Shown piece after piece: positions 26,208-61,442 of a stretch of DNA of 64,000 nucleotides (the stretch's first letter is position 1; the number at the start of each line of letters is the position of its first letter). The stretch comes from Anadara kagoshimensis. Taxonomy: Eukaryota > Mollusca > Bivalvia > Arcoida > Arcidae. The stretch covers positions 66,887,630-66,951,629 of the forward strand of contig CM037865.1 of the NCBI GenBank assembly GCA_021292105.1, read 5' to 3'. The notes beneath the pieces were generated by a model. It saw only the letters and a list, made by a program, of their open reading frames with translations, did no database searches and was not told where the DNA came from. Both the position numbers and the translations under genes were made by a program.

Positions 26208-26268
<61 letters not shown>

Positions 26269-26286: not shown

Positions 26287-26365
26287 CAAGTGTATTTAGC
26301 TCTTGCTCCTTTCTGCCCAGGCTTCTTCCTTTCTCGTGTTCTAGGATCTCTCACTAACAGACCAG
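26287..26365 (-). CDS. MRPS9: MRPS9 exon l (C-terminal tail; last exon seen)
   Basis: Acceptor AACTTGTAG. Encodes [20 protein letters not shown] then ARAKYT and TG of the conserved Trp codon. This is the universally conserved basic S9 tail, which normally ends about four residues later (TWKKR-like). Two readings exist. A donor ACTTG|GTATGA at 26287/26286 would give a tiny final exon further left, which I did not find. Without splicing, the frame runs through a C tract and the CA repeat as [10 protein letters not shown] then (TH)n and stops at 26058. I prefer the splice reading. Confidence 0.9.
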
Positions 26366-29300: not shown

Positions 29301-32300
29301 ATATACATGCTTATACAAAAAGTTTATAGTTTTTTAGATAATTAACCATTTAAAAATTCCTTTGCATCTATGACCTTGAACTTTGAATCTATGACCTTCA
29401 TTCATATATCAAAATGATTGTTGTGCAAATACCTACAATATTCCAATATATATGCCTATACAAAAAGTTTATAGTTTTTGAAATAGTTAACCATTTAAAT
29501 ATTCGTTCGCAGCTAGGACCTTGACCTTTGAACCTATGACCTTCATTCATACATCAAAATGATCGTTAGGCCAATACCTACAATATTTCAATACACATGC
29601 CTATACAAAAAGTTTATAGTTTTTGAGTTAATTAACCATTTAAGTATTCGTTCTATTCTATGACCTTGACCTTTGAACCTATGACCTTCATTCATATATC
29701 AAAATGATAGTTGTGCAAATGCCTACAATATTCTAATATGCATGCCTATACAAAAAGTTTATAGTTTTTGCGATAATTAACCATTTAAATATTTGTTCGC
29801 AGCTATGACCTTGACCTTTGAACCTATGAACTTCATTCATATATCAAAATGATCGTTAGGCCAATACCTACAATATTCCAATATACATGCCTATACAAAA
29901 AGTTTATAGTTTTCAAGATATATTGACAAATACATTAATTTTAGTGATTTTCCCCTTAAGTACCTTGCCATTTCCCCATTTTGGCCTCTACAGTTACGAT
30001 TTGTGCAAATCTGAAACTAGGTGCCCTAAGTATGTTTCACATGAAATATCTAAGCTACATCTCTTGTAAGTTCAGAGGAGATGATTTTTAAAGATTTTCA
30101 CAATTTCCCCCTTTATGGGGCCCCAAGGGGACATAATCCTTTCATTTGTGCAAATCTGAAAGGCCTTCACCTAGGCATCATAATCACTAAGTTTCATCAA
30201 ATTTGGCTTGGTAGTTTCAGAGGAGATGATTAAAATGTACAAAGTTAACACACGACGCACGGCAGACAACGGACGGGGAACCATTGCAATAGCTCATCTG
30301 AGCTTTCAGCTCAGGTGAGCTAAAAAAAAATAATACTAACCTACAGTCATTTTTAATAACATATCTTCACTGACAAAGCTTACTAGACTTTTAGATATGG
30401 CTAATCTTAAAGCCAATGATTGACTGGCTAATCCGCCACCTTCGACTTCCGCTACAACATCAACAGAGCCCAGCGCTCCAGTAAATTGTAGTGGAAATAG
30501 TATTTGTTCCCTGGAAAAGAATGCATCAAAAAAGTATCAATATAAAATTTACTTTGACAAGTGAAGTGATAAAATCAAAATTTTCTCAAGATGGCTGCAA
30601 TATCGAGTAAAACATATTGAAAAAGCTACACAAAAATATGAACTTAATACCAATTTATGTGTTGTTGAGTTGTTAAAAGCTTACTTAAATAACACTGCAC
30701 AGGTTCATAATAACGCAAATGCTTTATTCATAAGTTTTGCAATGTCGTACAATAAAGTTTTAAAAGATACTATTTCTACAGTGCTCCAAGTAGCCTAGTA
30801 AATACTCGAAATTTGCGACCAAAAATCGGATTTTGCGACTACAAATTGTCAGACGATCGCCATTATGTCAAATAATTTTTTTGAGTTTGGCCACTAAAAA
30901 TCGGGAAATCCGGAAATTTTGTTCATGACCCGTCACCCAACCTTACAAATAGTCTCGCCATCAATAATATCTTAAAAGCGCTTGAATCAAAGCAGGTAAC
31001 TTTATAGTTTAAAGCGCATAACTGACCGTGATCTAATTATGCATAATGACAGCCAAACGGCAAAAATCACTTTTTGATTTGGGTTTTGTTACGACTTTTA
31101 CTTCATCTAAATGATCAAGTTTGATTGTCTTCTCATCGCTCCGCCTTGAAAGTTGCCTACCATGGTAGGACCAATCCGAGGATCTCGCTAAACCATTCAA
31201 TCGGTAGTAGCGACGGGCGGTGTGATAGAAAGAATTTATATCGTCAACCGTCCTAAAATCGAGAGCGTCCTAAGATTCGAGGCCATTTTTGTTTTCAGTT
31301 ATTATACGAGAGTATCGTCTCTGCAGTGACGATTTCATGCATTAAAGACAAAATTTAGGTACTTATTATGAAACTATCCAGAAAATACAGTTGTCTATTT
31401 TTCAGTTCTCAAATTTTTGTTGCGTTAGCAAATTTAGTTCGTTTTCTATTAGAGTCTCGAATCACAGACGGTCGAGGATAAGGTTTGGCCACCAAGAATT
31501 TTACCTGGCGACAAAAATTTTGAAATGGCTACTGAAATTTTTGAATTATTAGCCATGTGGCTACCAGTTTTCAAAACCTGCTTGGAGCACTGTTTCTAGA
31601 TGGATTAGAACTGTTTTAAAATTAGCAGGTGTAGATATAAATATTTTTAAGCCACATAGTATTTGATCTGTGTCAACAACATCTGCATCAAATGTGCATG
31701 TTTCAATATCAACTGTTATGAAAGGTGCCGGATGGACTAATACTTCGACTTTTAGAAAATATTACAAAATACCTGTTACAGTTTATATATGGTTTTCACA
31801 GGCTATTCTTAATTGAATGCAGAAGTAAATACGTACATGTACATATGTAAATAAATGTAAATATTGTATATAAGAATGTGATATGGTTTTTAATTATGTT
31901 CACTATTGGGCAACTGATTCAGCAGACTCTAAACATCTCACGTGACCCCTCAATACCATGTGTAATAAAATGGAATTGGAAAATTTAAAAAAACTTTATT
32001 GAAGTTTGATTCTAATTTGATGATAACACATGGTAATTAGGGGTAACGTGCCCGCCCACACTGCCCGTGGGTAATCGCTGAATCGTTGCTGCGTTAAAGA
32101 CAACATTGTATCTTTTAATAATCCTAAATTTGAAGACTATCTGAATACATGTATCCTAGTGAGCTTGAAATAAAAAATACAGAATCTTCAAGTCCCGCTT
32201 CATATTAAGACTTATACCTTATGACACCCAAAAAAGGCTACATTTGAAACTTTATGACAAACATGATGACTTCATTTTTTTCTACTGTAAACTTTCCTTT

Positions 32301-35300
32301 TCTATGCAGCAACAATCTGCTTTTCCTGTTTATGGTGCGTTTGTTTCACCTTTAATACTCTATGGTACAGCTTGTTCCCACTACAGGCACTTTGTACAAC
32401 GAAGCAGTCTGCATACAAATAAATTGTTGACCCAGGGAAATTGCAAGCCTAGGCTTATGAGGGCCCTCAAGATGTTTTATGGCTGTCATTACAGTATTGT
32501 TGATAAGTATGATGTCTCTGTGTCCAGAATTACCCTGGATACATTTGATGTCCCATAGTTCTATGTTCCTTTCCCTCTCAATTCTGATTACACACACATG
32601 TGGCGGAAGTAGCTGGATAAACAGGAGGTGCTTACCCTTCCGGTCTCACCTCCCTTGTAAAAGTTCTTGTGATTAGCTTAATTTGTCAATTTCAAAGTTT
32701 TTACTTTACTTTTACATATAGTGATTTGGACATAGATAAGTATGTTTGTTTTTTATTTTGTGTGCATACATAGCCACTTATACTTAGTAAAGTTTTATTC
32801 CAGTGGAAAGACTAATGGATTCAGTGCAGTATTATTTTAGTGCCCATACTTTTTGTGTGCAAACAGTGTCACTTTTACTTAGCCCTGTTTTTTCTAGTTG
32901 AAAGAGCTCAAATAAAGCTGCCACTCAAATGTCCTGGTTTATAGTAATACCTGTATGGCATATGTCCTGGTTTATAGTAATACCTGTATGGGCATATGTC
33001 CGGTTTATAGTAATACCTGTATGGCATATGTCCTGGTTTATAGTAATACCTGTATGGTAGTCCTGGTTTATAGTAATACCTGTATGGCATATGTCCTGGT
33101 TTATAGTAATACCTGTATGGCATATCTTTGAAGTAAAATGTCTGGTTTATAGTAATACCTGTATGGCATATGTCCAGGTTTATAGTAATACCTGTATGGC
33201 ATATGTCCTGGCTTATAGTAATACCTGTATGGCATATTTGAAGTAAAATGTCCTGGTTTATAGTAATACCTGTATGGATATGTCCTGGTTTATAGTAATA
33301 CCTGTATGGCATATGTCCTGGTTTATAGTAATACCTGTATGGCATATGTCCTGGTTTATAGTAATACCTGTATGGCATATGTCCTGGTTTATAGTAATAC
33401 CTGTATGGCATATCTTTGAAGTAAAATGTCCTGGTTATAGTAATACCTGTATGGAATATCTTTGAAGTAAAATGTCCTGGTTTATAGTAATACCTGTATG
33501 GCATATGTCCTGGTTTATAGTAATACCTGTATGGCATATCTTGAGTAAAAATGTCCTGGTTTATAGTAATACCTGTATGGCATATGTCCTGGCTTATAGT
33601 AATACCTGTATGGCATATCTTTGAAGTAAAATGTGACTGTCCTGACTTATAGTAATACCTGTATGGCATATCTTTGAAGTAAAATGTCCTGGTTTATAGT
33701 AATACCTGTATGGCATATGTCCTGGCTTATAGTAATACCTGTATGGCATATCTTTGAAGTAAAATGTGACTGTCCTGACTTATAGTAATACCTGTATGGC
33801 ATATCTTTGAAGTAAAATGTCCTGGTTTATAGTAATACCTGTATGGCATATGTCCAGGTTTATAGTAATACCTGTATGGCATATGTCCAGGTTTATAGTA
33901 ATACCTGTATGGCATATCTTTGAAGTAAAATGTCCTGGTTTATAGTAATACCTGTATGGCATATGTCCTGGTTTATAGTAATACCTGTATGGCATATGTC
34001 CTGGTTTATAGTAATACCTGTATGGCATATGTCCTGGTTTATAGTAATACCTGTATGGCATATCTTTGAAGTAAAATGTCCTGGTTTATAGTAATACCTG
34101 TATGGCATATGTCCAGGTTTATAGTAATACCTGTATGGCATATGTCCAGGTTTATAGTAATACCTGTATGGCATATCTTTGAAGTAAAATGTCCTGGTTT
34201 ATAGTAATACCTGTATGGCATATGTCCTGGTTTATAGTAATACCTGTATGGCATATCTTTGAAGTAAAATGTCCAGGTTTATAGTAATACCTGTATGGCA
34301 TATGTCCTGGCTTATAGTAATACCTGTATGGCATATCTTTGAAGTAAAATGTCCTGGTTTATAGTAATACCTGTATGGCATATGTCCAGGTTTATAGTAA
34401 TACCTGTATGGCATATGTCCTGGTTTATAGTAATACCTGTATGGCATATGTCCTGGTTTATAGTAATACCTGTATGGCATATCTTTGAAGTAAAATGTCC
34501 TGGTTTATAGTAATACCTGTATGGCATATCTTTGAAGTAAAATGTCCTGGTTTATAGTAATACCTGTATGGCATATCTTTGAAGTAAAATGTCCTGGTTT
34601 ATAGTAATACCTGTATGGCATATGTCCAGGTTTATAGTAATACCTGTATGGCATATGTCCTGGTTTATAGTAATACCTGTATGGCATATGTCCTGGTTTA
34701 TAGTAATACCTGTATGGCATATCTTTGAAGTAAAATGTCCTGGTTTATAGTAATACCTGTATGGCATATGTCCTGGTTTATAGTAATACCTGTATGGCAT
34801 ATGTCCTGGTTTATAGTAATACCTGTATGGCATATCTTTGAAGTAAAATGTCCTGGTTTATAGTAATACCTGTATGGCATATGTCCAGGTTTATAGTAAT
34901 ACCTGTATGGCATATGTCCTGGTTTATAGTAATACCTGTATGGCATATGTCCTGGTTTATAGTAATACCTGTATGGCATATCTTTGAAGTAAAATGTCCT
35001 GGTTTATAGTAATACCTGTATGGCATATGTCCTGGTTTATAGTAATACCTGTATGGCATATGTCCTGGTTTATAGTAATACCTGTATGGCATATGTCCTG
35101 GTTTATAGTAATACCTGTATGGCATATGTCCTGGTTTATAGTAATACCTGTATGGCATATCTTTGAAGTAAAATGTCCTGGTTTATAGTAATACCTGTAT
35201 GGCATATGTCCAGGTTTATAGTAATACCTGTATGGCATATGTCCTGGTTTATAGTAATACCTGTATGGCATATGTCCTGGTTTATAGTAATACCTGTATG

Positions 35301-38300
35301 GCATATCTTTGAAGTAAAATGTCCTGGTTTATAGTAATACCTGTATGGCATATGTCCTGGTTTATAGTAATACCTGTATGGCATATGTCCTGGTTTATAG
35401 TAATACCTGTATGGCATATGTCCTGGTTTATAGTAATACCTGTATGGCATATCTTTGAAGTAAAATGTCCTGGTTTATAGTAATACCTGTATGGCATATG
35501 TCCTGGTTTATAGTAATACCTGTATGGCATATGTCCTGGTTTATAGTAATACCTGTATGGCATATCTTTGAAGTAAAATGTCCTGGTTTATAGTAATACC
35601 TGTATGGCATATGTCCTGGTTTATAGTAATACCTGTATGGCATATGTCCTGGTTTATAGTAATACCTGTATGGCATATGTCCTGGTTTATAGTAATACCT
35701 GTATGGCATATGTCCTGGTTTATAGTAATACCTGTATGGCATATCTTTGAAGTAAAATGTCCTGGTTTATAGTAATACCTGTATGGCATATCTTTGAAGT
35801 AAAATGTCCTGGTTTATAGTAATACCTGTATGGCATATGTCCAGGTTTATAGTAATACCTGTATGGCATATGTCCTGGTTTATAGTAATACCTGTATGGC
35901 ATATGTCCTGGTTTATAGTAATACCTGTATGGCATATCTTTGAAGTAAAATGTCCTGGTTTATAGTAATACCTGTATGGCATATCTTTGAAGTAAAATGT
36001 CCTGGTTTATAGTAATACCTGTATGGCATATGTCCAGGTTTATAGTAATACCTGTATGGCATATGTCCTGGTTTATAGTAATACCTGTATGGCATATCTT
36101 TGAAGTAAAATGTCCTGGTTTATAGTAATACCTGTATGGCATATGTCCTGGTTTATAGTAATACCTGTATGGCATATCTCTGAAGTAAAATGTCCTGGTT
36201 TATAGTAATACCTGTATGGCATATCTTTGAAGTAAAATGTCCTTGTTTATAGTAATACCTGTATGGCATATCTTTGAAGTAAAATGTCCTGGTTTATAGT
36301 AATACCTGTATGGCATATCTTTGAAGTAAAATGTCCTTGTTTATAGTAATACCTGTATGGCATATCTTTGAAGTAAAATGTCCTGGTTTATAGTAATACC
36401 TGTATGGCATATCTTTGAAGTAGAGTATACTGCCTCCATTTATACTGATTTTTCCAGTTCCATCTGGATAGAGTCTGACTTTAGCGCTTGATGTTTTCTT
36501 TGTACCTGAAGAAAAAAAGCAACCATTACTAAAATAAGTTCTTGAAAGAAATCAGTTTGGCAATTTTATCATTATAGTGCAAAAACTATTCATAGATATT
36601 CAGTTAATACCATAATTATTCGTGATTATTGTTTGATTAAATTTGCCCCAACATCTAATAAACAAATAACCATGTAATAAGTGTCTGGAGAAATGTGATG
36701 AAACTTTACTAGCTGTCATCAAAATATTTCAATATCCTACTCAATATTTTCAAGTATTTTAGAAATAGATAATAATGAAAAATGCAAACCAATCCACATG
36801 TAAAAAGAGATACTATCTGTGGTTTGACTGGAGCAGTTCATATGCTGTATAGTTGCTTTTATTCACTGGGGATTTAATTTCCATATTCACTGTTTGATCT
36901 AATAGTGTGAAATTAAATACTAAGTAAATGTTTTCATGTTGCATCAATTATACTTAGACTTAAATAACCTTTACAGAAAATTCTTAACACTGGCCACTGC
37001 ACCGCAAAATTTTATACCTGTGACTAAATTACAGTGTCTACACTGCAAAATTTTATACCCGTGACTAAATTACAGTGTCTACACTGCAAAATTTTATACC
37101 CGTGACTAAATTACAGTGTCTACACTGCAAAATTTTATACCCGTGACTAAATTACAGTGTCTACACTGCAAAATTTTATCCCCGCAAACTTAAACAACTA
37201 TACAGTAATACATGTATGTCAATATAAAATCCTAAGTATATCGGTAAATGCAAGCAAGAATATGCCCTAAAACCTTGCAAGTTAATCTGCACTGTAAGCA
37301 AATTATTTAAAACAACAAGAAATCTGTGACCTACTGCTGACTTAGTAAACCCATGCTTTTAACTTCAACCATCGACCTTAAATGTCAAAAAATAAACTAA
37401 GTCAGTTAACAGGAAGTAGATGAGAGGCAGACTTGAAATCAGTACTTGCGGCATTAGACCTCATTCTGAACTTGCAAAAAAAAAAATTCAAGTGGCTGTG
37501 TTTGATAGTTGTGGAGAAAACTGTTATGAAAATTTTTGTTTTGGACGGACAGCGGTAAAACAGTATACCCCCCCCCCCCCCTTCTTCAAAGCAGGTGTAT
37601 AATTATATTTTTCTTGAAAGACTTTTCAGAACATCACTGTAAATTAAAACTGCTGGCAAGAGAAAATCACTTCAAGTAGAAGTAGTATGCTAACACAGGC
37701 TGTATGAGTTTTAATAAAATGTACAACTTAAAATAAGATTAATGAGGACACTGTGTATACAACATAAAACATGCATATACCTCTTGCCACTACAAATTTT
37801 CTTCCTTCTGCATCTTCCAGCATATTCTATTAAAATATATAATTTCAATATAAAATTTGAGAAATAAATAAAATAAAGATCAGTAAAGTATAAGATAAAT
37901 GGTTGTGCTGACCAATTGCCCGGCCACTTGTATACCGAATACGTTGACAAATCGGCCAGCCACTTGTATACCCCATATGCTGACCCATTGGCCAACCACT
38001 TGTTTACTCCATAAACTGCTCCATCAGTCCGCCACTTGTTTACCCAGTAGGCTGACTCATTGGTCAGCCACTTGTTTATCAAATAGGCTGACGCAAGGCC
38101 CTGTACTTGTGTATCCATACCCATGACACAATCCACATCTACATGTATTTATGGCAAATTGAACATCAGAAACATAACAAAGGTCTGTGTGTAAAATTAT
38201 ACCAAGTAATTAAGAGATTTGATTGACATTTATAATTTTTTGTTAACTGTATTAAAAAGACAATCAACATCCACAGAATAAAAGTAATTATTTGAAGAGA

Positions 38301-52900: not shown

Positions 52901-55900
52901 GTATGTTGATAACAAAAGAATTTTTAAAAAGTATATTTTTGAAACTTTTTTAAAAACTTAAAAAAAATCTTAAGTCATTTATCCTCATGTCAACAAATGA
53001 AGCCATAAAGCACTAAGGATAGATTATTACTCATTATTAATTATGACAATATGATACATATACATGTACTATTTCCTATTGTTTTCATTACTGGCTTCTA
53101 CCTATTAAAGAAAACATGTCTTTATTTAAGATATGTGTATATACTTGGTGATTTTTAAGTTTTTTTTTCAAAGATTGATAAATAGTGTGGTCAGAAGATT
53201 TTTCTTTAATTGTTTTCAAAGAAATTATTCTGTTAAAATTAGCTAATGCCTTTTTTGTAACAGAAATTTTAACAAATAAAATAGATAAATTAGAACTGCT
53301 CACTATTTTTCCAACTAATATTTATATTGATGTCATAACTGGATTTACAAACCTCTATATAAAGGCCACCTGTCCATAAGGGCCACTTTTGCAACTTCCC
53401 CCGAGTGGCCCTTATAGACAGGTTAGACTGTATGTATAAATAGATACTAACTGTGCTCGGAACATTGTCAAACTCTCTCGTAAAGGCATGTTGTCTTGGC
53501 TTTACAGTCTTTCGATAAACGATGCACGCACAGTGAGGCATGATAAATGTTTATGGCTTTAAAGTTTATTCAACTTCACACAAATATAAAGTGTGGTTAC
53601 TGAGTTAAAGCCAAATAATAATTTAAAAAATTAATAATAATAAATATATCCAAGCTGTGTTTGATATAAAAATAATTAAATTTTATTCATGAAACAGTGA
53701 CAAAAAAACTAAAAACTAAAAAATAAATAAAAATATCTATTTATCTCTTTTAAATAATATAACAATGTTATGAAATATCATGAGACAAAAAGTCCTATGG
53801 TACGAAACGTCTTACAAATATGGTACGAAAAGTCCTGAATATGGTACGAAATGGCATGGGACGAAAAAACCTATGGGACGAAATGTCTGTAATTCCTAAT
53901 TTTCGCTTATTTTGCAGTAGTTTTTTCGCGTGAAAATCAATACCGAGTGAAAATTATATTATGCTTATTGTGTTACAGTTCATATTTTAAAAAAAACACT
54001 AAAATTTTATTACGTGGATATGTCTTAATTTCATATACCTCGAAAATAAATACATGCGGACATTAAATATGATTACAGTATGATGTTTCACTCTCCCAGG
54101 TTTTTCAGTTTATGAAAAGATGTTTCAAGTTCATACTACCTGAGGTCACAGTGAACTCGAATGTATGTCAAGGTCAACTAGCTTTGAAAATTTAATAGTT
54201 TTGTGCCCTGGTGCTATTTATAAAGCTTTGATCATCTAGGTATTTTAGTTCATGACAAGAATATGGAGATCATTTGTGTAAAATTCTCAAAAGCATCAAT
54301 GAGTTATAGCCCAGACACACACCCTCTGTGACCTTGACCTTATTAGATATATGTACTTGGTTCAAGGTTATGGCAAACCCTTGTCATTAATCAGTTTTTT
54401 CTATATATAAATTAGTAACTGCATTTTAAGTCATCATCAAAATGAAAATTATAAAATTTAACCTACTTAACATAAACAAGATCCATTCACACATTTGCTT
54501 ACCATACTAAATGTTATCTTCTTCAAAAGGTTACAAATTGTTACATAGTACAACAAAGTTATACATTATGGTCAAAAGGGAGATATCTCAAATAATGCAA
54601 GCATCATTTAATTTTGGTGCAAATCGATCCAGCATTTAAAGAGAAAAAGATTAAGGTTTACAGATGGCAAACAAATGAAGTCACAAATGCATCTGTTGCC
54701 ATGCAATAGCTAGAAAATAAAGTTTCAAAGTTCCAGGTAAGTTTTGTCCTTAGAGAAAATAATTCTTAAAACACTATGAAATACTTACGTGTAAAAGCGC
54801 AAAAAAATTAGGTTTTGCCGTGTAAAATAAATAGTGATATGGCCGTCCATCAAGACCAAATTCTGCCACTGTAAAACAGCAAATAAAAAAATATATACGA
54901 TTTGTGAAGAAAAAAGATCAAGGAAATGTGCAGATGATTTCTCCTAAATTTTCAGTGTGCTTACATTTATATTTCCCTGTGATGAAAAAAGTACTGATCA
55001 TGTTTTAGATATTCACAGAAAAACATATAAATCATTGAAAGAAGTCTGGGGAAATAAGCTAATTTGTTCCACATTAACCTGTAAATACAGTGGTTTCTGT
55101 GCCAACCAAACCACAAAGTAAACTAAATACCTGTCTAAACTGAACAGTTTTACCAGAATATTCTTTTAATAGTTTGATATTGTTTGATAAATGTGTTATA
55201 ATTGAAGTGAGATGCCATTTCATAAGTGACCACCAAACAAACCTCAAATGAAAAATCCCGAACAATGTGCCCATCTACCTAATTAAAGATTGATCATGGC
55301 AAAAGATTGTTCCTGTGAAGTTTCATTAGGATGTGTAAAATAATTTTCTGAAAAATGGCAAACAAATGTTGGAGGAAGAAATGGAGTACACACTATACAT
55401 GTACCCCTCCCCCTTGTTTGGGGACATAATTAACCTGTATAATTCAATACTAAGCATCTGTCTTATCTGAATAACACAATCTTCAGTCTAAATGGTGTTA
55501 GGCAGGTTACACTGTATATACATATAATTCTACAATCAATTAAACAGAGTTTTAGTTCACAGCATTTCTACTAGTACCAATTATTACTAAACCTAAAAAA
55601 GATGGCTTTTTCGGAATAAGTTTCTTTATCAGTGGTGCTTAGACGAACCAATTCATGAATCAGCTGAATAAACTAGACCACCAAACCAAATTGCATATGT
55701 TGTTTAGGGTCATACTAGACAGCTTAGCAGGAACAAAATAACCTGCGAGTTACAAGTCCACTGATTTAACCATTTCACCACTGTTTATATATTTCTTTCA
55801 TCTGAACCCCAGCCAGGATTGACCCAAGACTTGAAAATGGGTAGTGACTGTTCTTTTGCCAAGCACTCGGCATTACCAAATGAAAGTCGGGGTTCTTTTG

Positions 55901-58900
55901 GATGGAAACTTAAATAAATGAAGTCCCCTGTCATGGTAGGCTTGGCACAATAAAGAACCCTGCTGTATAATGCCATCAGAGCAACACACAGGTAACATTT
56001 CTGCAGCTTTGTCTATAGCTGGCAACATATCAACACAAGTGAAAAATTCTTGACTGGGGCGTTAAACACCATCATTCAACTCAACTCTTAGCTTCTAGAT
56101 CTAAAACTTACCCTTTCTACCTGGCATTACATATATCGGATGCTGAAATTGAAACAAGATAAACATATATACTATATATGCATGTATATCAGGCCCCAGT
56201 TTCACAATCATTCCTAAACTAAAATTTACCTTTACGTAAATCTGGTAAATTCTAGGATTACTATGTTCCTAAATATAAAAATTTCCAATGAAATTTAGAT
56301 GTAGCTGTAATAAGCTTGAACTGATCTTCAAAATAACACCTTAAATTCATGAGTAACTTCATAACTAAATTAGAGAAATGATCACTTTGTCATCCCCAAT
56401 CATCACAGGAAAAAAACCACTTTTTTAAGTACCTGTAATAATTATTGTAATTAATACTGTTTGTGTATCAACAATTACGGACATTCTTAAAACTGTTGAC
56501 ACAAGTATTATATGGACATCTAATGAACGCCATTATGAATCAGTGACATTTAGATTTTATTTCTTGTGAAAAAAAAAGATGTAACATATTTACGGAATAA
56601 TGATATGTAGTCTTGTGAGACTGATCTCTCTTTAATTGAAGTCTCACAATGGGGGAGTTATCTCTCTTAAATGTTCTGTGAACCATGTAGATGCTGGAGA
56701 ATATAACATACCAGTAACAAGCACAAGATTGTGTTGATGTTTGTTTTTATAATCAATGTATATGTCCAACAAATACAATAATTACCTTCATCACTGGTCT
56801 ATGTGTTAGTGGTTTTTAAAAATTACCTTCATCACTGGTCTATGTGTTAGTGGTTTTTAAAAATTACCTTCATCACTGGTCTATGTGTTAGTGGTTTTTA
56901 ATAATTACCTTCATCACTGGTCTATGTGTTAGTGGTTTTTAATAATTACCTTCATCACTGGTCTATGTGTTAGTGGTTTTTAATAATTACCTTTATCACT
57001 GTCTATGTGTTAGTGGTTTTTAATAATTACCTTTATCACTGGTCTATGTGTTAGTGGTTTTTAATAATTACCTTCATCACTGGCCTATGTGTTAGTGGTT
57101 TTTAATACATGTAATTACCTTCATCACTCGTCTATTTGTTAGTGGTTTTTAATAATTACCTTTATCACTGGTCTATGTGTTAGTGGTTTTTAATACATGT
57201 AATTACCTTCATCACTGGTCTATGTGTTAGTGGTTTTTAATAATTACCTTCATCACTGGTCTATGTGTTAGTGGTTTTTTATAATTACCTTCATCACTGG
57301 TCTATGTGTTAGTGGTTTTTAATAATTACCTTTATCACTGTCTATGTGTTAGTGGTTTTTAATAATTACCTTTATCACTGGTCTATGTGTTAGTGGTTTT
57401 TAATAATTACCTTCATCACTGGCCTATGTGTTAGTGGTTTTTAATACATGTAATTACCTTCATCACTGGTCTATGTGTTAGTGGTTTTTAATAATTACCT
57501 TCATCACTGGTCTATGTGTTAGTGGTTTTTAATAATTACCTTCATCACTGGTCTATGTGTTAGTGGTTTTTAATAATTACCTTCATCACGGGTCTATGTG
57601 TTAGTGGTTTTTAATAATTACCTTCATCACTGGTCTATGTGTTAGTGGTTTTTAATAATTACCTTTATCACTGTCTATGTGTTAGTGGTTTTTAATAATT
57701 ACCTTTATCACTGGTCTATGTGTTAGTGGTTTTTAATAATTACCTTTATCACTGGTCTATGTGTTAGTGGTTTTTAATAATTACCTTCATCACTGGTCTA
57801 TGTGCAGGGATTTATTAAGGGCCTATTTAGGGCCGAAATTCGGCCCCATTCCCAATGAAAAACATTGATTTTTTCCCAAAATGGGCTGAGAAAATTCCCA
57901 ATTAGAAAATCGTACCAGATACATAGCTGAAGTCTGGCCATAAATGTGGCTGCTTTTCTCGATCTTCAATCAACTCAGTACACTAAAAGCATTAGATTTA
58001 ATCATTAATGGCATCAAAAATGATGTCAAAATTTTCCCAAAATGAGCAAAAAGTTGCTGGTTTTTCCCAATTTTTAGTTTAGGGCCTTTTCCCAAAAGAC
58101 CCTGATAAATCCCTGATGTGTTAGTGGTTTTTAATAATTACCTTTATCACTGGTCTATGTGTTAGTGGTTTTTAATAATTACCTTCATCACTGGCCTATG
58201 TGTTAGTGGTTTTTAATACATGTAATTACCTTCATCACTGGTCTATGTGTTAGTGGTTTTTAATAATTACCTTTATCACTGGTCTATGTGTTAGGGGTTT
58301 TTAATACATGTAATTACCTTCATCACTGGTCTATGTGTTAGTGGTTTTTAATAATTACCTTCATCACTAGTCTATGTGTTAGTGGTTTTTAATACATGTA
58401 ATTACCTTCATCACTGGTCTATGTGTTAGTGGTTTTTAATACATGTAATTACCTTCATCACTGGTCTAGCCCTTTTATCGTGCAAACCTGATGGTAATAA
58501 ATAGTTTATTGCTCTCTAAAATAGAAAACAAAACATATCTATACAGAAAATTTAAATCCCAAATGACAAAATAATTTTTTGTTTTCACAATTTTGATTCT
58601 TATTTTCACAGTTTAATTCTTATTTTCACAGTTTTTTATTCTTATTTTCACAGTTTAATTCTTATTTTCACAGTTTTTTATTCTTATTCTCACTGTAATA
58701 AAAGTTTACCTTGGACTCAAAGTACTGGAATACTTCTGCATTCTTAATAATTCAAGTTACATTGCATCTTTACATACAGGTACCGTAGTTCTTATTGCTT
58801 GTTAATTTCACAAACAACTAATCTGGAAAAATGCTATATATTATTTAATCTACTCAATAATCCATGTAATACGGTCATACAATAAAAATCGTATTGAATG

Positions 58901-61442
58901 AGTGTGACGTCATAAAAGCATAAAAGTCATTCCAGAGTGACGTCACACAATTAACCTAGTTCACAGTTGTTTGTATCATTTGACACTGTTTGTTGATTCT
59001 AATTTAAGCTGATACATTTGTACTTTTCTTCTGAAAAGAAAATACATTGTATTTAAATTGAAATTGTTTGTTTTGTTTTTGTATCCTGCGAACAGACTAT
59101 TGTTTGCTTTTAATATTTCAGCAGGATGTACACATTTATGTGAACTTGTTGTGTTTCGGTCAATCAGCTGTTTTCTTATAATGAGAAGAAAAGTTTTAAA
59201 TCTATGAAAAACTCGTTTTTTATGGGATTATATAATAAATAGAATCTTACATTCATGTTTATGTAATATTGAATTTATTCAACTCGTTGAATAATGTTTT
59301 ATGCAACTCGCCAAGGCTTGTTGCATAAAAAATTATTCAACTCGTTTAATACATTCAATATTACATAAACACTCATGCAAGATCCTCTATATATTATTTG
59401 CTGGTTATATATTATAATATACCATCTGAGCTACCATAATGGTGATTTCATGTTGAATGGACTATTACCTTCCAATGTTGTTTTGACAGAAAAATGTTAT
59501 TATCAGATTAGAGCAGTCTTTTAATAGAAATAACCTTCTTCCCCCAAAATTGAGAGTTGTTATTTTTATAATTGATTTTGTGACCTTGACTCTTGACCTA
59601 TGCAACTAAATTTAATATGCAACACATCACCTCATATTGGTTTTCATTTATACCACATTTGATCAATATCCATAGACAATGGCAGACAAACAGACACAGA
59701 CAGATGGGCATGGCGATTCCTATACAGCCTCATAAACTTCATCGGAGGGTCAATAATATACATGTTCAGAACTTATGAATATTACTTTAAAACAGTCTAA
59801 AATTCTTGTGGTTTCTGCCTCAGATGTGATAATCTGTATAGGTGACACTTCTAACCAGAATACTACATGTATAACATAATCTTTTTGGATTTCAATATTT
59901 TAATAATAAAATAATCTACAAGTATACAGTAAAACCTTGATTCATCGCCACCATTTGTTCAGTCAAATTTTGGCGTTATAAAGGGTTTTGGCAATAAATC
60001 GAGAAAGGCTCATAAAGAAATACATAAACAAAATGGAGTTTGGGACTTCAAAATAGTGTGGCGATAAGCAAGGTGGCAAAGTTATCGAGGGGCATTATAA
60101 CGAGGTTTTACTGTATTTAGATTTTCTGTTTTTGTTTCGTTGTTTTCATTGTTGTGTATACATATTTTTTTCTAGGAGCATTAGCAGAAATGCATATTTT
60201 TGGTCTCAAAGAAATAATAACAACAACAAAATAAACAAAGCATCTACATCCTAAAAAAAATACATACGTTTATATCATCCTGACCAAAAGTTGCAGGATC
60301 TTGTCCCATAATTTTAGCCAAATGTCTTTTTCCTAGTTTGTACTTTTCTGTTTCTGCCTTTAGAATAGCCTCTGAAAATATAAATGTTAAATAAATTGTA
60401 AAATAAAAAATATCAAATATTTAAATTATCAATGCCATGCCATTTTCAATGGTGATATATAACATATGTACTTCTATATTTACTGCTGCTATTTTCTTAC
60501 TACAAATTTTTGTGTTTATTTTCACATAAACTTGTGAGAGTATCAAGCCGCAAAAATAAACTTTTGTGAATATTTACCGTAATTTTATGCAATTAACTAG
60601 CATTAGAACTGATTGTCATCTGACCACGAAAAATAGAATTACATAAATAACTTGAAAGGTCCTTACTTTCAAAAATTTACTGACTTGAAAATTTTCAATT
60701 AACATTATATCGTTTTAATGTTCCTGAATTTTGGCAAACAAAAGATCAGCATGGATATTGCCGAAAATGAATTTATCATGATGATTATAAATTTTGAGAC
60801 CATGGATAGTGCAATCAATTCTCAAATAGTTATTTGTAAACGACATGTCCAACGATAAACTATAGCAGAGTTGAGAGTTGAGTAATGGTGTTAAATTTCC
60901 AGTCAAGAATATTTCACTTATATTAATATGTCGCCAGCTATAGGTGAAGGTGCAAAAATTTTGCCTGTGTTTTGTGCTGATGGCATTATACAGCAGAATT
61001 CTTTATTGTGCACTGCCTACCTTGACAAAGGGCCTACTTTATTTTAAGTTCTCATCTTAAAGAACCATGACTCAGTCGGATGTTCGACACCAATGACCTC
61101 CCACTTATGGAGTGAGCACTCTACCAACTTACCCACTGCAGTGGTTTAATTATACAGGTGAATTGTCACAGAAGCCTAACGGTACCTTATCATGCCTGCA
61201 CCTTTAAGTGACTTATCTCTATAAATTTGTTGTAAGTTTATTTAGTCATAATCTGATTAATCTTATAAACAATTACGCCACAAAATTTACCACTACCTCT
61301 TGTATACTAGATGAAGGGATACATACCTTCTGCTTTTGTACTTTCCAAATATAGTTTCATAGCTGTACTGATTTTTTCTACCTTGGACATTTTTCTGGTT
61401 ATCTCCCTGTTCTGTTTGGGGACTGTAACTTCATTTTTAGAA
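26287..61442 (-). CDS. MRPS9: MRPS9, mitochondrial small-subunit ribosomal protein uS9m (12 exons seen; N-terminal leader and last codons not found)
   Basis: Twelve exons on the minus strand join in frame at every junction: 61442-61327, 60371-60268, 58515-58453, 56142-56112, 54868-54789, 43990-43899, 42150-42075, 38617-38492, 37826-37781, 36505-36400, 30510-30341, 26365-26287. All introns are GT/AG. The product is a mitochondrial small-subunit ribosomal protein. Its N-terminal part is the metazoan mitochondrial extension ([38 protein letters not shown]), and its C-terminal part is the S9/uS9 fold ([54 protein letters not shown]). In the family the C-terminal tail contacts 16S-type rRNA near the P site. 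The window holds 363 codons; vertebrate MRPS9 has close to 400. The first exon here begins in phase 2, so a leader exon lies upstream. Introns total about 34 kb and are almost all repeats. Identification rests on recognised residue patterns, not on a search. Confidence 0.95.
26418..26735. repeat. ~30-bp ATG-rich minisatellite in the last MRPS9 intron
   Basis: About 10-11 copies of units with ATAATGATGATGATAATGAC and AATCACT. ORFs reading poly-I, poly-H or poly-M across it are artefacts of the repeat. It ends about 50 bp from the exon l acceptor. Confidence 0.93.
27140..27325. repeat. Four-copy ~43-bp tandem repeat
   Basis: Unit has TTAACACAGGCACCTTTCTG and ATCAGACACAGTTTCAATTA. The copies are practically identical, so the expansion is recent. 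Confidence 0.93.
27499..28289. mobile_element. hAT-like non-autonomous element, 791 bp
   Basis: Ends CAGGGATCGAATTTT and inverted AAAATCGATCCCTG, with subterminal TAGCGAGT / AGCAAGTG motifs. Flanked by a 5-bp duplication CAACA (27494-27498, 28290-28294). No transposase. CAGGG termini fit hAT; a 5-bp duplication is shorter than the usual 8. Parts of its interior recur at 51860-52600. Confidence 0.82.
28589..30322. mobile_element. AGGCCCATGGGCCT / CTCACCTGAG dispersed repeat, 1.7 kb
   Basis: Starts AAGAGGCCCATGGGCCTTAA then GCTCACCTGAG; ends with GCTCATCTGAG, GCTCAGGTGAGC and an A run. The ends are inverted with respect to each other. The 3' part contains GACGCACGGCAGACAACGG and TTCAGAGGAGATGAT, which I know as common dispersed sequence in bivalves. 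The middle is the 145-bp tandem array. Confidence 0.75.
28840..29925. repeat. 145-bp tandem array, about 7.5 copies
   Basis: CCTACAATA recurs at 28851, 28996, 29141, 29286, 29431, 29576, 29721 and 29866 (first base of the decamer), exactly 145 bp apart. Two variants, TTAGGCCAAT and TTGTGCAAAT, mostly alternate. Each copy has TGACCTTGACCTTTGAAC. Confidence 0.95.
30341..30510 (-). CDS. MRPS9: MRPS9 exon k (S9 core)
   Basis: 170 nt, acceptor CTTTTCCAG, donor GTAG|GTTAGT. Encodes [40 protein letters not shown] and [16 protein letters not shown]. The GGG-x-Q-A-RLA pattern is the core uS9 signature (usual Q-AGA-R here reads Q-S-LALR). A dispersed repeat ends only about 20 nt beyond the donor (see finding). 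Confidence 0.96.
30779..31592. mobile_element. hAT-like MITE, 814 bp, carrying an 18S rRNA fragment
   Basis: Inverted ends CAGTGCTCCAAG / CTTGGAGCACTG with further similarity inward; 6-bp duplication TTTCTA (30773-30778, 31593-31598). No transposase. Its middle contains the 3' end of 18S rRNA in reverse orientation. Confidence 0.82.
31086..31224 (-). rRNA. 18S rRNA 3'-end fragment (~139 bp, pseudogene inside a MITE)
   Basis: Read on the minus strand it gives CACACCGCCCGTCGCTACTA, CCGATTGAATGGTTTAGCGA, GATCCTCGGATTGG, then AGAAGACAATCAAACTTGA, TCATTTAGATGAAGTAAAAG and TCGTAACAA. These are the universal 3'-terminal sequences of eukaryotic 18S rRNA (helix 44 region to the end). The variable helix 44 tip is shorter or diverged (CCATGGTAGG). 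A fragment, not a functional gene. Confidence 0.9.
32036..32118 (+). repeat. SINE-like 3' fragment
   Basis: AATCGCTGAATCGTTGCTGC followed by GTTAAAGACAACATT resembles the 3' core of the SINE at 2512 (GCTGATGCGACGTTAAGCAA). No tRNA-like head is seen. Confidence 0.5.
32390..32765 (-). repeat. Dispersed repeat with a conserved peptide, in an MRPS9 intron
   Basis: Inverted relative to the array copies. The minus-strand frame 32597-32352 reads [59 protein letters not shown] and continues to 32352. Substitutions against the array copies often keep the residue or its class, which suggests descent from a coding sequence. Function not recognised. Confidence 0.7.
32931..36422 (-). repeat. Exon j-intron junction minisatellite (33/47-bp units, ~90 copies)
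   Basis: In gene orientation the long unit is TACTTCAAAGATATGCCATACAG joined to GTATTACTATAAACCAGGAC and ATTT; the short unit lacks TTTTACTTCAAAGAT. The first 23 nt are exactly the last 23 nt of MRPS9 exon j (36422-36400) and the rest is the start of the intron. The array begins at the true donor and runs about 3.5 kb into the intron. 33-mers come in runs of one to four between 47-mers, giving higher-order blocks of 80, 113, 146 and 179 bp. The [11 protein letters not shown] reading frames on it are not proteins. Confidence 0.96.
36400..36505 (-). CDS. MRPS9: MRPS9 exon j (start of the S9 fold)
   Basis: 106 nt, acceptor TTTCTTCAG, donor CCATACAG|GTATTA. Encodes [20 protein letters not shown] then [16 protein letters not shown] (last codon split). 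This is the GKRKTAxA / GxGKIxVNG start of the S9 domain. Its last 23 nt (36400-36422) are the exon part of the minisatellite unit in the next intron. The boundary is fixed by exon k, which begins G-GAA-CAA and restores the conserved REQ. Confidence 0.94.
37003..37180. repeat. 41-bp tandem repeat, about 4 copies
   Basis: Unit has CTGCAAAATTTTATACCCGT and GACTAAATTACAGTGTCTAC. It lies in intron i-j, not adjacent to a splice site. Confidence 0.93.
37781..37826 (-). CDS. MRPS9: MRPS9 exon i
   Basis: 46 nt, acceptor TTTTAATAG, donor AGAG|GTATAT. Encodes [15 protein letters not shown] plus one base that joins exon j. It is the linker before the S9 fold. Support is from phase and splice sites more than from residue identity. 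Confidence 0.82.
37900..38110. repeat. Diverged ~42-bp minisatellite, about 5 copies
   Basis: Units share GCCACTTGTATACC or GCCACTTGTTTACC and GCTGACCCATTGG-like parts. The copies differ at many sites, so this is an old array. It is in intron h-i. Confidence 0.85.
38492..38617 (-). CDS. MRPS9: MRPS9 exon h
   Basis: 126 nt (42 codons), acceptor CTATTCTAG, donor GTG|GTACGG (a weak donor). Encodes [20 protein letters not shown] then a basic helix ending KVKHHGKV. The Y-QFI-L start matches the family. Confidence 0.88.
38749..38879. mobile_element. Hairpin-type inverted repeat (MITE-like)
   Basis: GGACTTTTTAGTGGTTGTAT ATGGTGTGAT (38753-38782) is inverted as ATCACACCATATACAACTAC TAAAAAGTCC (38850-38879), with about 65 bp between them. 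Confidence 0.8.
39620..40040. repeat. 45-bp minisatellite, about 9-10 copies
   Basis: Unit has CAATATGACAACAAGACAAC and AATAATGTCTTCAGCCATG. It lies in intron g-h. Confidence 0.93.
40989..41062. mobile_element. Short hairpin inverted repeat
   Basis: GTAGACATAAAGATTTATCA and CCTCAAAAA are inverted as TTTTTGAGGTTG and ATCCTTATGTCTAC around a short spacer. Confidence 0.7.
41121..41428. mobile_element. piggyBac-like MITE, 308 bp
   Basis: Flanked by TTAA at 41117-41120 and 41429-41432. Ends CCCTCTTGTTGCCAAA and inverted ATTTGGCAGCAAGAAGG. TTAA duplication with CCC ends is typical of piggyBac. Confidence 0.72.
42075..42150 (-). CDS. MRPS9: MRPS9 exon g
   Basis: 76 nt, acceptor TTTATTTCAG, donor GAG|GTAACT. 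With the two bases from exon f it gives 26 codons ending [21 protein letters not shown]. It precedes the conserved YxQFI motif that opens exon h. Phase agrees on both sides. Confidence 0.87.
43127..43604. mobile_element. Palindromic MITE, 478 bp, TA-flanked
   Basis: Arms of about 130 bp: CTGTAGGAAC, GTCACAGTCACAG-type sequence, TTCTCTTTATATCCATAGA, ACCTAGTCGTAA and TGTATGCGCATC on the left, with the inverse on the right. TA at 43125-43126 and 43605-43606 fits Tc1/mariner-type insertion. Confidence 0.87.
43899..43990 (-). CDS. MRPS9: MRPS9 exon f
   Basis: 92 nt, acceptor TTTTTTTCAG, donor AAATT|GTATGT. Encodes [20 protein letters not shown] then [10 protein letters not shown]. It matches the family's less conserved region after the HYLFYT block (a helix followed by LPE). 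It ends with two bases of a codon completed by exon g. Confidence 0.87.
44280..44412. repeat. Inverted repeat A, left copy
   Basis: Contains TTTCGTCCCATGCCATTT, GTACCATATTCAGGACTTTT and GTAAGACGTTTCGTACCATA. The inverse lies at 53783-53885. Confidence 0.88.
44617..44805. mobile_element. GGCCACCTCTATATAAGGGC repeat with TACAGTCCAACCT end
   Basis: Starts TACAGTCCAACCTGTGTTAA with repeated TATAAGGGCCAC motifs. This type ends in a TA-flanked inverted repeat; the matching inverse end (GGTTAGACTGTA) is at 53425-53436. Confidence 0.7.
45005..46030. repeat. ~170-bp tandem repeat, about 6 diverged copies
   Basis: Each copy has CATAATTCGAGGATGCTGA, AATGGCGGATACCAAGCTC, CAAAATGGCGGCTAAAATTA and GTTACTTGGGTTGAGAAATT. 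Divergence rises toward the right end. An inverse copy lies at 48790-48925. Confidence 0.88.
46150..48175. other. Intron sequence, little recognised
   Basis: Part of intron e-f. A segment at 47229-47405 resembles 44100-44235, 42180-42360 and 38375-38470 (AGTAGCCAAATTTCCA..., GCCAATGGCGATTTTGG), a dispersed family with no clear ends. An open minus-strand stretch at 46885-47076 is not recognised. Nothing else is supported. Confidence 0.5.
48180..48720 (-). mobile_element. Second copy of the AGGCCCATGGGCCT / GCTCACCTG family
   Basis: GGTGAGCAATAAGGCCCATA at 48683-48702 is the inverse of the 28589 start. The body differs from 28589-30322 and lacks the 145-bp array, so it is another subfamily or a truncated copy. 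Confidence 0.6.
48790..48925 (-). repeat. Single inverse copy of the ~170-bp repeat
   Basis: TTTTAGCGGCCATTTTGT and CAGCTTGGTATCCGCCATTT are the inverse of motifs in 45005-46030. Confidence 0.75.
49400..50410. repeat. (ATC)n-rich low-complexity region
   Basis: About 1 kb of imperfect ATC/CAT triplets with repeated islands such as CAGCAGTACTGAATGTCATC and ACTATGGGCAG. The poly-S, poly-I and poly-H ORFs over it are artefacts. Confidence 0.93.
50815..51405. repeat. ~180-bp tandem repeat, about 3 copies
   Basis: CTGTAAGAGGAGTTGAGTTC recurs near 50825, 51095 and 51275, each with AAAAAGTGACTAAGTTTCAA and TGAAATATTTCCATAAAGTC. The first interval is longer because of a partial extra copy. Confidence 0.85.
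51860..52600. repeat. Sequence related to the interior of the 27499-28289 element, rearranged
   Basis: 51890-51940 (GACAGGGTGTCATGATCATT) matches 28072-28098 in the same direction. 52435-52590 (TGGCGGCGACTGTAAA, GTCAAAAAGAAGAACG, TGACAAGATCGTC) matches 27610-27770 inverted. The order and orientation differ from a simple copy. Confidence 0.65.
53338..53436. mobile_element. GGCCACCTCTATATAAGGGC repeat, inverse end
   Basis: ACCTCTATATAAAGGCCACC then inverted GTGGCCCTTATAGACAGG and GGTTAGACTGTA. It could be a small separate MITE or the right end of an element that starts at 44617. Confidence 0.65.
53783..53885. repeat. Inverted repeat A, right copy
   Basis: Contains TATGGTACGAAACGTCTTAC and ATGGCATGGGACGAAA, the inverse of 44280-44412. 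Confidence 0.88.
53895..54078. repeat. Diverged copy of sequence upstream of the array ORF
   Basis: Shares the order TTATTT(C/T)GCAGT, AAAATTATATTAT, GTGTTA(C/T)AGT, CGAAAATAAATAC with 5490-5645 in each array unit. Confidence 0.7.
54080..54788. other. Intron sequence, nothing recognised
   Basis: AT-rich, with several AGGTCA/TGACCT-containing stretches typical of dispersed bivalve repeats. No element ends or coding sequence are supported. Confidence 0.4.
54789..54868 (-). CDS. MRPS9: MRPS9 exon e
   Basis: 80 nt, acceptor TGTTTTACAG, donor CAC|GTAAGT. Encodes [20 protein letters not shown] and FFALLH; DGRP-HYLFYT is a signature block of the mitochondrial extension. The next intron, 54788-43991, is the largest in the gene (10.8 kb) and is rich in repeats. 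Confidence 0.95.
55790..56095 (+). mobile_element. SINE-related repeat ending GCGTTAAACACC
   Basis: Contains CCAAGCACTCGGCATTACC, AAGTCCCCTGTCATGGTAGG, TTGGCACAATAAAGAACCCT and the 3' core GGGGCGTTAAACACCATC followed by CAACTCAACTC. I know this layout as a common bivalve SINE type. The tRNA-like head at the left is too decayed to place. Confidence 0.72.
56112..56142 (-). CDS. MRPS9: MRPS9 exon d (31-nt micro-exon)
   Basis: 31 nt, acceptor TTTCAATTTCAG, donor AAAGG|GTAAGT. Encodes [10 protein letters not shown] plus one base. It follows RPVMK of exon c exactly, as in the family (RPVMKHP), and its phase joins exon e. The match of both phases and the HP start support this short exon. Confidence 0.9.
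56780..58468 (-). repeat. Exon c-intron junction minisatellite (41/46-bp units, ~33 copies)
   Basis: In gene orientation the unit is TAGACCAGTGATGAAG followed by GTAATTATTAAAAACCACTA and ACACA. The first 16 nt are exactly the last 16 nt of MRPS9 exon c (58468-58453); the rest is the start of the intron, including the donor. A 46-bp form has ATTACATGTATT in place of ATTATT, and it is the form next to the exon. A hAT-like MITE interrupts the array at 57805-58115. Confidence 0.96.
57805..58115. mobile_element. hAT-like MITE, 311 bp, inside the exon c minisatellite
   Basis: Inverted ends CAGGGATTTAT / ATAAATCCCTG, with AGGGCCTATTTAGGGCC and TTTAGGGCCTTTTCCC near the ends. 5-bp duplication ATGTG (57800-57804, 58116-58120); removing it restores the repeat unit CTATGTGTTAGTGG. 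Confidence 0.88.
58453..58515 (-). CDS. MRPS9: MRPS9 exon c
   Basis: 63 nt (21 codons), acceptor TATTTTAG, donor ATGAAG|GTAATT. It encodes [20 protein letters not shown], the best conserved block of the mitochondrial extension. The last 16 nt of this exon with the following donor are the seed of the minisatellite that fills the next intron (56780-58468). The true exon is told from the repeats by its LPSGLHDK coding part and its own acceptor. Confidence 0.95.
58902..58948. promoter_or_regulatory. Inverted pair of full CRE-like sites
   Basis: GTGTGACGTCA (58902-58912) and TGACGTCACAC (58938-58948) form an inverted repeat, each with a perfect TGACGTCA palindrome. Possibly CREB/ATF sites or the ends of a small element. 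No promoter is otherwise seen. Confidence 0.35.
59255..59385. mobile_element. Hairpin-type MITE
   Basis: ATGTTTATGTAATATTGAAT ... TTATGCAACTCG is inverted as TTGTTGCATAAAAAATTATT ... ATTCAATATTACATAAACA around a centre near 59315. Confidence 0.82.
59927..60113. mobile_element. Tc1/pogo-like MITE, 187 bp
   Basis: Ends CAGTAAAACCTTGATTC and inverted ACGAGGTTTTACTG, flanked by TA at 59925-59926 and 60114-60115. Confidence 0.85.
60268..60371 (-). CDS. MRPS9: MRPS9 exon b
   Basis: 104 nt, acceptor TATTTTCAG, donor AAC|GTATGT. With the G left by exon a it encodes 35 codons including [20 protein letters not shown] and GQDDIN, which is the diagnostic GKRHLA / DP-T-F block of mitochondrial S9. It ends in phase 0. 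Confidence 0.93.
60866..61150 (-). mobile_element. SINE, reverse orientation
   Basis: Inverse of the same family: on the minus strand it has a tRNA-like head (GTGGGTAAGTTGGTAGAGTG), then GCACAATAAAGAATTCTGCT and the 3' part with TTAACACCATTACTCAACTC. About 280 bp. Confidence 0.75.
61327..61442 (-). CDS. MRPS9: MRPS9 exon a (most upstream exon found)
   Basis: 116 nt, acceptor TTTCTACAG, donor AAG|GTATGT. It starts with one nucleotide of a split codon, then SKNEVTVPK...[15 protein letters not shown]. The AMKLYLE segment matches the N-terminal helix that precedes the GKRHLA motif in MRPS9. The codon at the start is completed by a leader exon that should lie at higher coordinates and was not identified. 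Confidence 0.88.

Follow-up and report, generated by a model that had tools for sequence, protein, structure and literature searches.

The uS9m gene and its two junction arrays

The window, a stretch of 64,000 nucleotides (C9:66887630-66951629) with a G+C content of 33%, includes exons of the uS9m (MRPS9) gene on its minus strand together with two minisatellite arrays, each derived from one exon-intron junction of the gene (Table 1). The gene had been named as MRPS9 in the original prediction, and the translated exons matched uS9m chains in PDB with a best E-value of 9e-68 (3e-60 in an earlier search). Array 2 is an addition to that prediction, which included only array 1.

Table 1. Features of the uS9m locus in gene order. 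In donor motifs a slash marks the exon-intron boundary.
Feature	Coordinates	Strand	Remarks
uS9m exon B	60268..60371	-	PDB uS9m match
uS9m exon C	58453..58515	-	ends ...KRARPVMK; PDB uS9m match
Array 2, minisatellite derived from exon C / intron junction	56777..58468	-	33 donors AAG/GTAAT; units mainly of 47 and 41 nt; insertion within the array
311-bp element inside array 2	57805..58115		short terminal inverted repeats (CAGGGATTTAT..); CACAT on both flanks
uS9m exon C2	56112..56142	-	31 nt; next exon past array 2; frame restored
uS9m exon D	54789..54868	-	PDB uS9m match
uS9m exon J	36400..36505	-	ends ...YFKDMPYR; codon split AG/G with exon K
Array 1, minisatellite derived from exon J / intron junction	32931..36422	-	91 donors CAG/GTATTA; mostly 47- and 33-nt units
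uS9m exon K	30341..30510	-	next exon past array 1; PDB uS9m match
uS9m exon L	26287..26365	-	Ribosomal_S9 C-terminus

The exon set is incomplete. The parts between exons D and H and between exons H and J were not found in the window, exon H is without a settled donor, exon G is a weak match to a human segment, and exon A is a guess, the residues of which failed to align in the PDB uS9m comparison. The Rfam search produced no matches in the window at gathering thresholds. A (TG)25 run (26209-26258; CA on the gene strand) lies about 29 nt past the donor of exon L and has 12.5 units in a second copy of the gene. Positions 1-24000 of the window are occupied by three tandem segments that resemble one another, are about 7.6-8.0 kb long and each contain a long reverse-transcriptase-like ORF. 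These segments share the same 34-, 61- and 31-bp arrays, and RVT_1 and DUF6451 were detected in the first segment, the only one tested.

Exon J ends at position 36400 of the minus strand with ...GATATGCCATACAG and is followed by the intron sequence GTATTACTATAAACCAGGACATTT. The string ATACAG/GTATTA, at which the region was split by script, is present in array 1 in 91 exact copies on the minus strand, the first donor having its G at 36399 and the last being at 32950. The 90 inter-donor units included 54 of 33 nt, 28 of 47 nt and eight of other lengths, and the first five units from the exon J side were all 47-mers. The 47-mer consists of the 23 nt ending exon J (TACTTCAAAGATATGCCATACAG) and 24 nt of intron, while the 33-mer is the same unit minus a 14-nt middle stretch and retains 11-13 nt of the exon, the range reflecting a two-base ambiguity. 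Every inter-donor interval is too short to conceal a unit with a broken donor. Past the final copy the intron continues as a different sequence, GAGTGGCAGC....

Most of what had been predicted for this array was thus borne out: the coordinates, here on the minus strand, about 90 tandem copies of the intron's own 5' splice site, the collinearity of the repeat with the exon J end including the 23-nt exon end, units with 11 or 23 nt of exon, an authentic donor in every unit (91/91 exact), and 47-mers as the copies nearest the exon.

Array 2 has the same anatomy. It begins at the end of exon C, at 58452, and is formed by copies of the junction at 58453 (...AGACCAGTGATGAAG/GTAATTACATG), with 33 donors AAGGTAAT; its 47-nt unit includes 16 nt of exon C and 31 nt of intron. 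Because the exon ends in question are ordinary conserved protein sequence, the exons are the source of the arrays, not their product. When the genome was searched with an 80-base piece of array 1, two candidate places being scored and very common words skipped, 74 of the 74 matches among those listed were at the window locus or at the second gene copy.

The second gene copy and the decoy donors

The other uS9m copy is located at C9 around 71.125-71.153 Mb, in inverted orientation. Outside the arrays the aligned blocks of the two copies are about 95-99% identical. Of the eight exons compared, four had no mismatches, exon J among them, and three had one, exon C among them; the guessed exon A showed six in an ungapped comparison. 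Both arrays are present also in the second copy, with different numbers of donors: array 1 has 91 in the window versus 44 in the second copy, where 41 of the 43 units are 33-mers, and array 2 has 33 versus 54, the latter uninterrupted and lacking the 311-bp element. The two versions of array 1 share the same tail and differ greatly in internal unit order.

Many matches to TCP1 in the same genome are likewise paired on one contig, inverted on C7, C9 and C11 and in the same orientation on C16, C18 and C19. The best alignments of eight TCP1 locus pairs showed identities of 92.6-99.2%, and weaker blocks reached as low as 88.7%. Judged from these paired genes, the second uS9m copy is probably the other haplotype retained in the assembly, and the length difference between the two copies would be allelic. 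An assembly that seems to retain duplicated haplotypes could also be suspected of having inflated or created an array through misassembly. This is extremely unlikely, as both uS9m copies carry both arrays and array 1 combines a common tail with a different internal order, although the exact copy number of the arrays could be affected by assembly.

In the printed alignment to 3jd5_I, in which the first donors were assumed, exons C, C2 and D were joined without gaps and no gap was present at the junction of exons J and K. Colinearity of the uS9m protein with its relatives requires the first donor in both arrays, and splicing at these donors can be inferred. Donor sequence strength cannot separate the real donor from the decoys, because all 91 donors of array 1 are identical over 12 nt.

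This identity would also suit an array of alternative donors, in which the decoys are partly used and yield variant proteins. A system of this kind is the minisatellite with multiple splice donor sites in human IFI6 (6-16; Turri 1995, as cited in PMC2915984 and PMC4526556), where two downstream repeat units reportedly serve as donors and give isoforms, according to PMC4526556. IFI6 and uS9m are alike in that a minisatellite gives the transcript its row of donor sites. The difference is that downstream units are reported to be used in IFI6, whereas none of the uS9m decoys is in frame without a stop codon. Of the array 1 decoys in the window, 88/90 would give an extension with a stop codon and 2/90 would shift the frame, leaving 0/90 in frame without a stop; the corresponding numbers in the second copy are 25/43, 18/43 and 0/43. 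In array 2 the extension includes a stop for all decoys both in the window (32/32) and in the second copy (53/53), so that 0/32 and 0/53 are open. Use of the decoys for variant proteins is therefore highly improbable, and the predicted addition of 11-residue repeats by decoy use was contradicted by the same counts.

Masking by RNA structure was rejected as a general answer to the choice of donor, as the first donor of array 1 is among the least accessible in the predicted structures: only 7 and 6 of the 90 decoys in the window, and 1 and 2 of the 43 in the second copy, were less accessible. The first donor of array 2 had the highest predicted accessibility in three of four settings and was mid-ranked in the fourth (31/53 lower).

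Within the donor window (-3..+6), all nine columns were invariant, both in array 1, with 132 of 135 copies scored, and in array 2, with 81 of 87 scored; the other 3/135 and 6/87 units were omitted because of shifts or array ends, and their anchored donor core is intact. Across the whole unit 12/33 columns were variable in array 1 and 14/41 in array 2, which gives hypergeometric P-values of about 0.008 and 0.013, respectively, for columns that are not independent in homogenized arrays. Of the 33 nine-base windows in array 2, the donor window alone showed no change, while in array 1 44% of the windows were unchanged. Altogether, the 222 donor copies of the four arrays are all intact over at least -3..+5.

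This invariance agrees with the idea that the donor copies are kept for a function, for example as U1 snRNP sites reinforcing a donor without G at +5, or as zero-length recursive sites (AG/GT) regenerating the junction. Such a function is nevertheless quite unlikely. Apart from the non-independence of the columns, a TCP1 array on C11 (L016) includes one copy with a lost donor (TAG/ATAAGT), and no clear pyrimidine tract was seen by eye ahead of the AGs. Both uS9m array donors lack G at +5, and a weak donor of this kind was also considered as a cause of the arrays. That explanation was dropped, since the TCP1 repeats L016 and L040 have GTAAGT, and the presence of G at +5 in these two likewise argues against reinforcement. 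A more specific view holds that selection acts on the inner donors, which as rows of sites for U1 binding or of recursive splice points would help to define or excise the introns. It starts from the 222 intact donors in units that drift over much of their remaining length, and it is very unlikely to be correct.

Junction-spanning repeats in other genes

Junction-spanning repeats were searched for in the same genome around exon matches to PF00118 (TCP1 chaperonin), a case being a direct repeat within 400 nt that extends 8 nt or more to both sides of an exon edge. From 74 matches, four C19 rows, C9:24117330 and three presumed intronless matches (two on C19 and C2:6896881) were removed, which left 66 matches and 132 edges. 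Tandem repeats spanning the junction were found at 5/132 edges, representing four distinct events. Three of these were on the donor side: an 82-bp unit in four copies, present in both copies of one gene, a 64-bp unit in two copies, and a 304-bp unit in two copies at L028 (C7:14496989), the pair of which, L027, is without the repeat. The fourth event, at L042 (C1:43269768), was on the acceptor side and included three copies of a 77-bp unit, with the real exon after the final copy, mirroring the donor-side cases. Loci L016, L017, L028 and L040 are thus affected on the donor side and L042 on the acceptor side, so that both boundary types occur in the genome. The 304-bp duplication at L028 is a junction repeat at the two-copy stage.

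Further TCP1 signals were left out of the count. A 47-bp repeat in two copies on C11 starts past the junction, and an acceptor match on C2 and a match on C19 span no edge. A 27-nt match on C9, 280 nt distant, was not counted either and is possibly an old case.

The same test was positive in 104/1548 TCP1 control windows, which were half-overlapping and therefore non-independent, lay at least 150 nt from exon matches and may include unrecognized exons; compared with the 5/132 edges, this gives a Fisher P-value of 0.27. For HSP90, in which 14 of the 18 matches were used and 26 edges lay within the sequence examined, none of the 26 edges had a junction-spanning repeat, and the background was also 0/94 windows. 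In uS9m itself 2/18 edges were positive versus 181/622 intron windows, these windows including both arrays and several edges being approximate and that of exon G not genuine. The proposal that junctions are hotspots of duplication thus found no support, as the edges of TCP1, HSP90 and uS9m were not above the non-coding background in the samples.

Mirages and the origin of the arrays

Minisatellite-like tandem repeats across exon-intron boundaries have been named mirages in lancelets, and in PMC3087553 and PMC3902484 they are described from the Adh3, troponin C (TnC) and globin genes, with an imperfect form in PGBD5. According to the same sources they occur on both donor and acceptor sides, differ in length between haplotypes and reportedly do not interfere with splicing, and somatic instability has been reported for those of Adh3. 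The uS9m arrays resemble them in that the units span the exon-intron boundary (23+24 nt and 16+31 nt) and in that the repeats carry the AG/GT splice signals, of which the window has 91 and 33 copies. They differ in the number of copies, up to 91 donors versus six and three units in the globin gene BflGb6, the only lancelet counts compared, and in that two arrays are present in one gene, in another genome. By their sequence the uS9m arrays are mirage minisatellites, a known kind of repeat now seen in one more genome, and they have a higher copy number than the globin example from lancelets. How the gene is still spliced correctly had been put forward as an open question, and this stands for the choice of donor, while for correct splicing as such the lancelet mirages, reportedly leaving it undisturbed, offer a precedent in the sources cited above.

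Two further systems are related in part. Intron gain through tandem duplication of sequence with a proto-splice site, as presented in PMC2891723, likewise involves a tandem duplication of a stretch bearing splice signals, whereas in uS9m the intron pre-exists and the duplication lengthens its start without producing a new intron. The TSSK1-like gene of abalone has a 27-bp intronic minisatellite, for which no relation to a junction is stated in the section of PMC6905558 consulted. In the literature on bivalve intron minisatellites, splicing and mirages, so far as its accessible text extends, no report of a mirage-type junction repeat from a mollusc was found.

It is very probable that the uS9m arrays arose when an ordinary tandem duplication straddled the junction, expanded and was tolerated because the exon-adjacent copy gives the correct exon. 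Each array would have started from a short tandem duplication that crossed the exon-intron junction by chance, and a founding unit of 47 bp, the longest regular unit, is assumed for both. Growth would have followed through unequal exchange or slippage during replication, and the shorter derived units of 33 and 41 nt would have spread. The copy nearest the exon would keep the exon end and the donor, so that the first donor would still be usable and the whole array would be removed with the intron. Since this copy still permits splicing at the first donor, the duplication would be nearly neutral and persist.

The origin by tolerated duplication is favored by the collinearity with the exons, a conserved exon as the source, the differing array lengths, the similar events in TCP1 and a rate at or below the background. 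Against it stand the invariant donor window (-3..+6), a feature not required of a purely neutral array, copy numbers in uS9m far above those of the TCP1 cases (2-4), and the lack of a case in HSP90, though there the background was likewise 0/94. On a plain reading, the genome is rich in tandem duplication, and duplications at junctions survive as one intact junction adjoins the exon.

With 91 identical donors in one intron, the sequence of a donor is separated from its position. Should the first donor be the one chosen, the reason would be neither the 5' splice site nor the preceding 23 nt, as the 47-mers share both, and the locus is therefore a natural test of exon definition versus simple donor competition. 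The presence of the same type of repeat in other genes, at a level not above the sampled background of duplication, suggests that mirages are an expected by-product in repeat-rich genomes and not a peculiarity of lancelets. Intron length polymorphism could often originate from them, and they could supply raw material for changes in splice sites.
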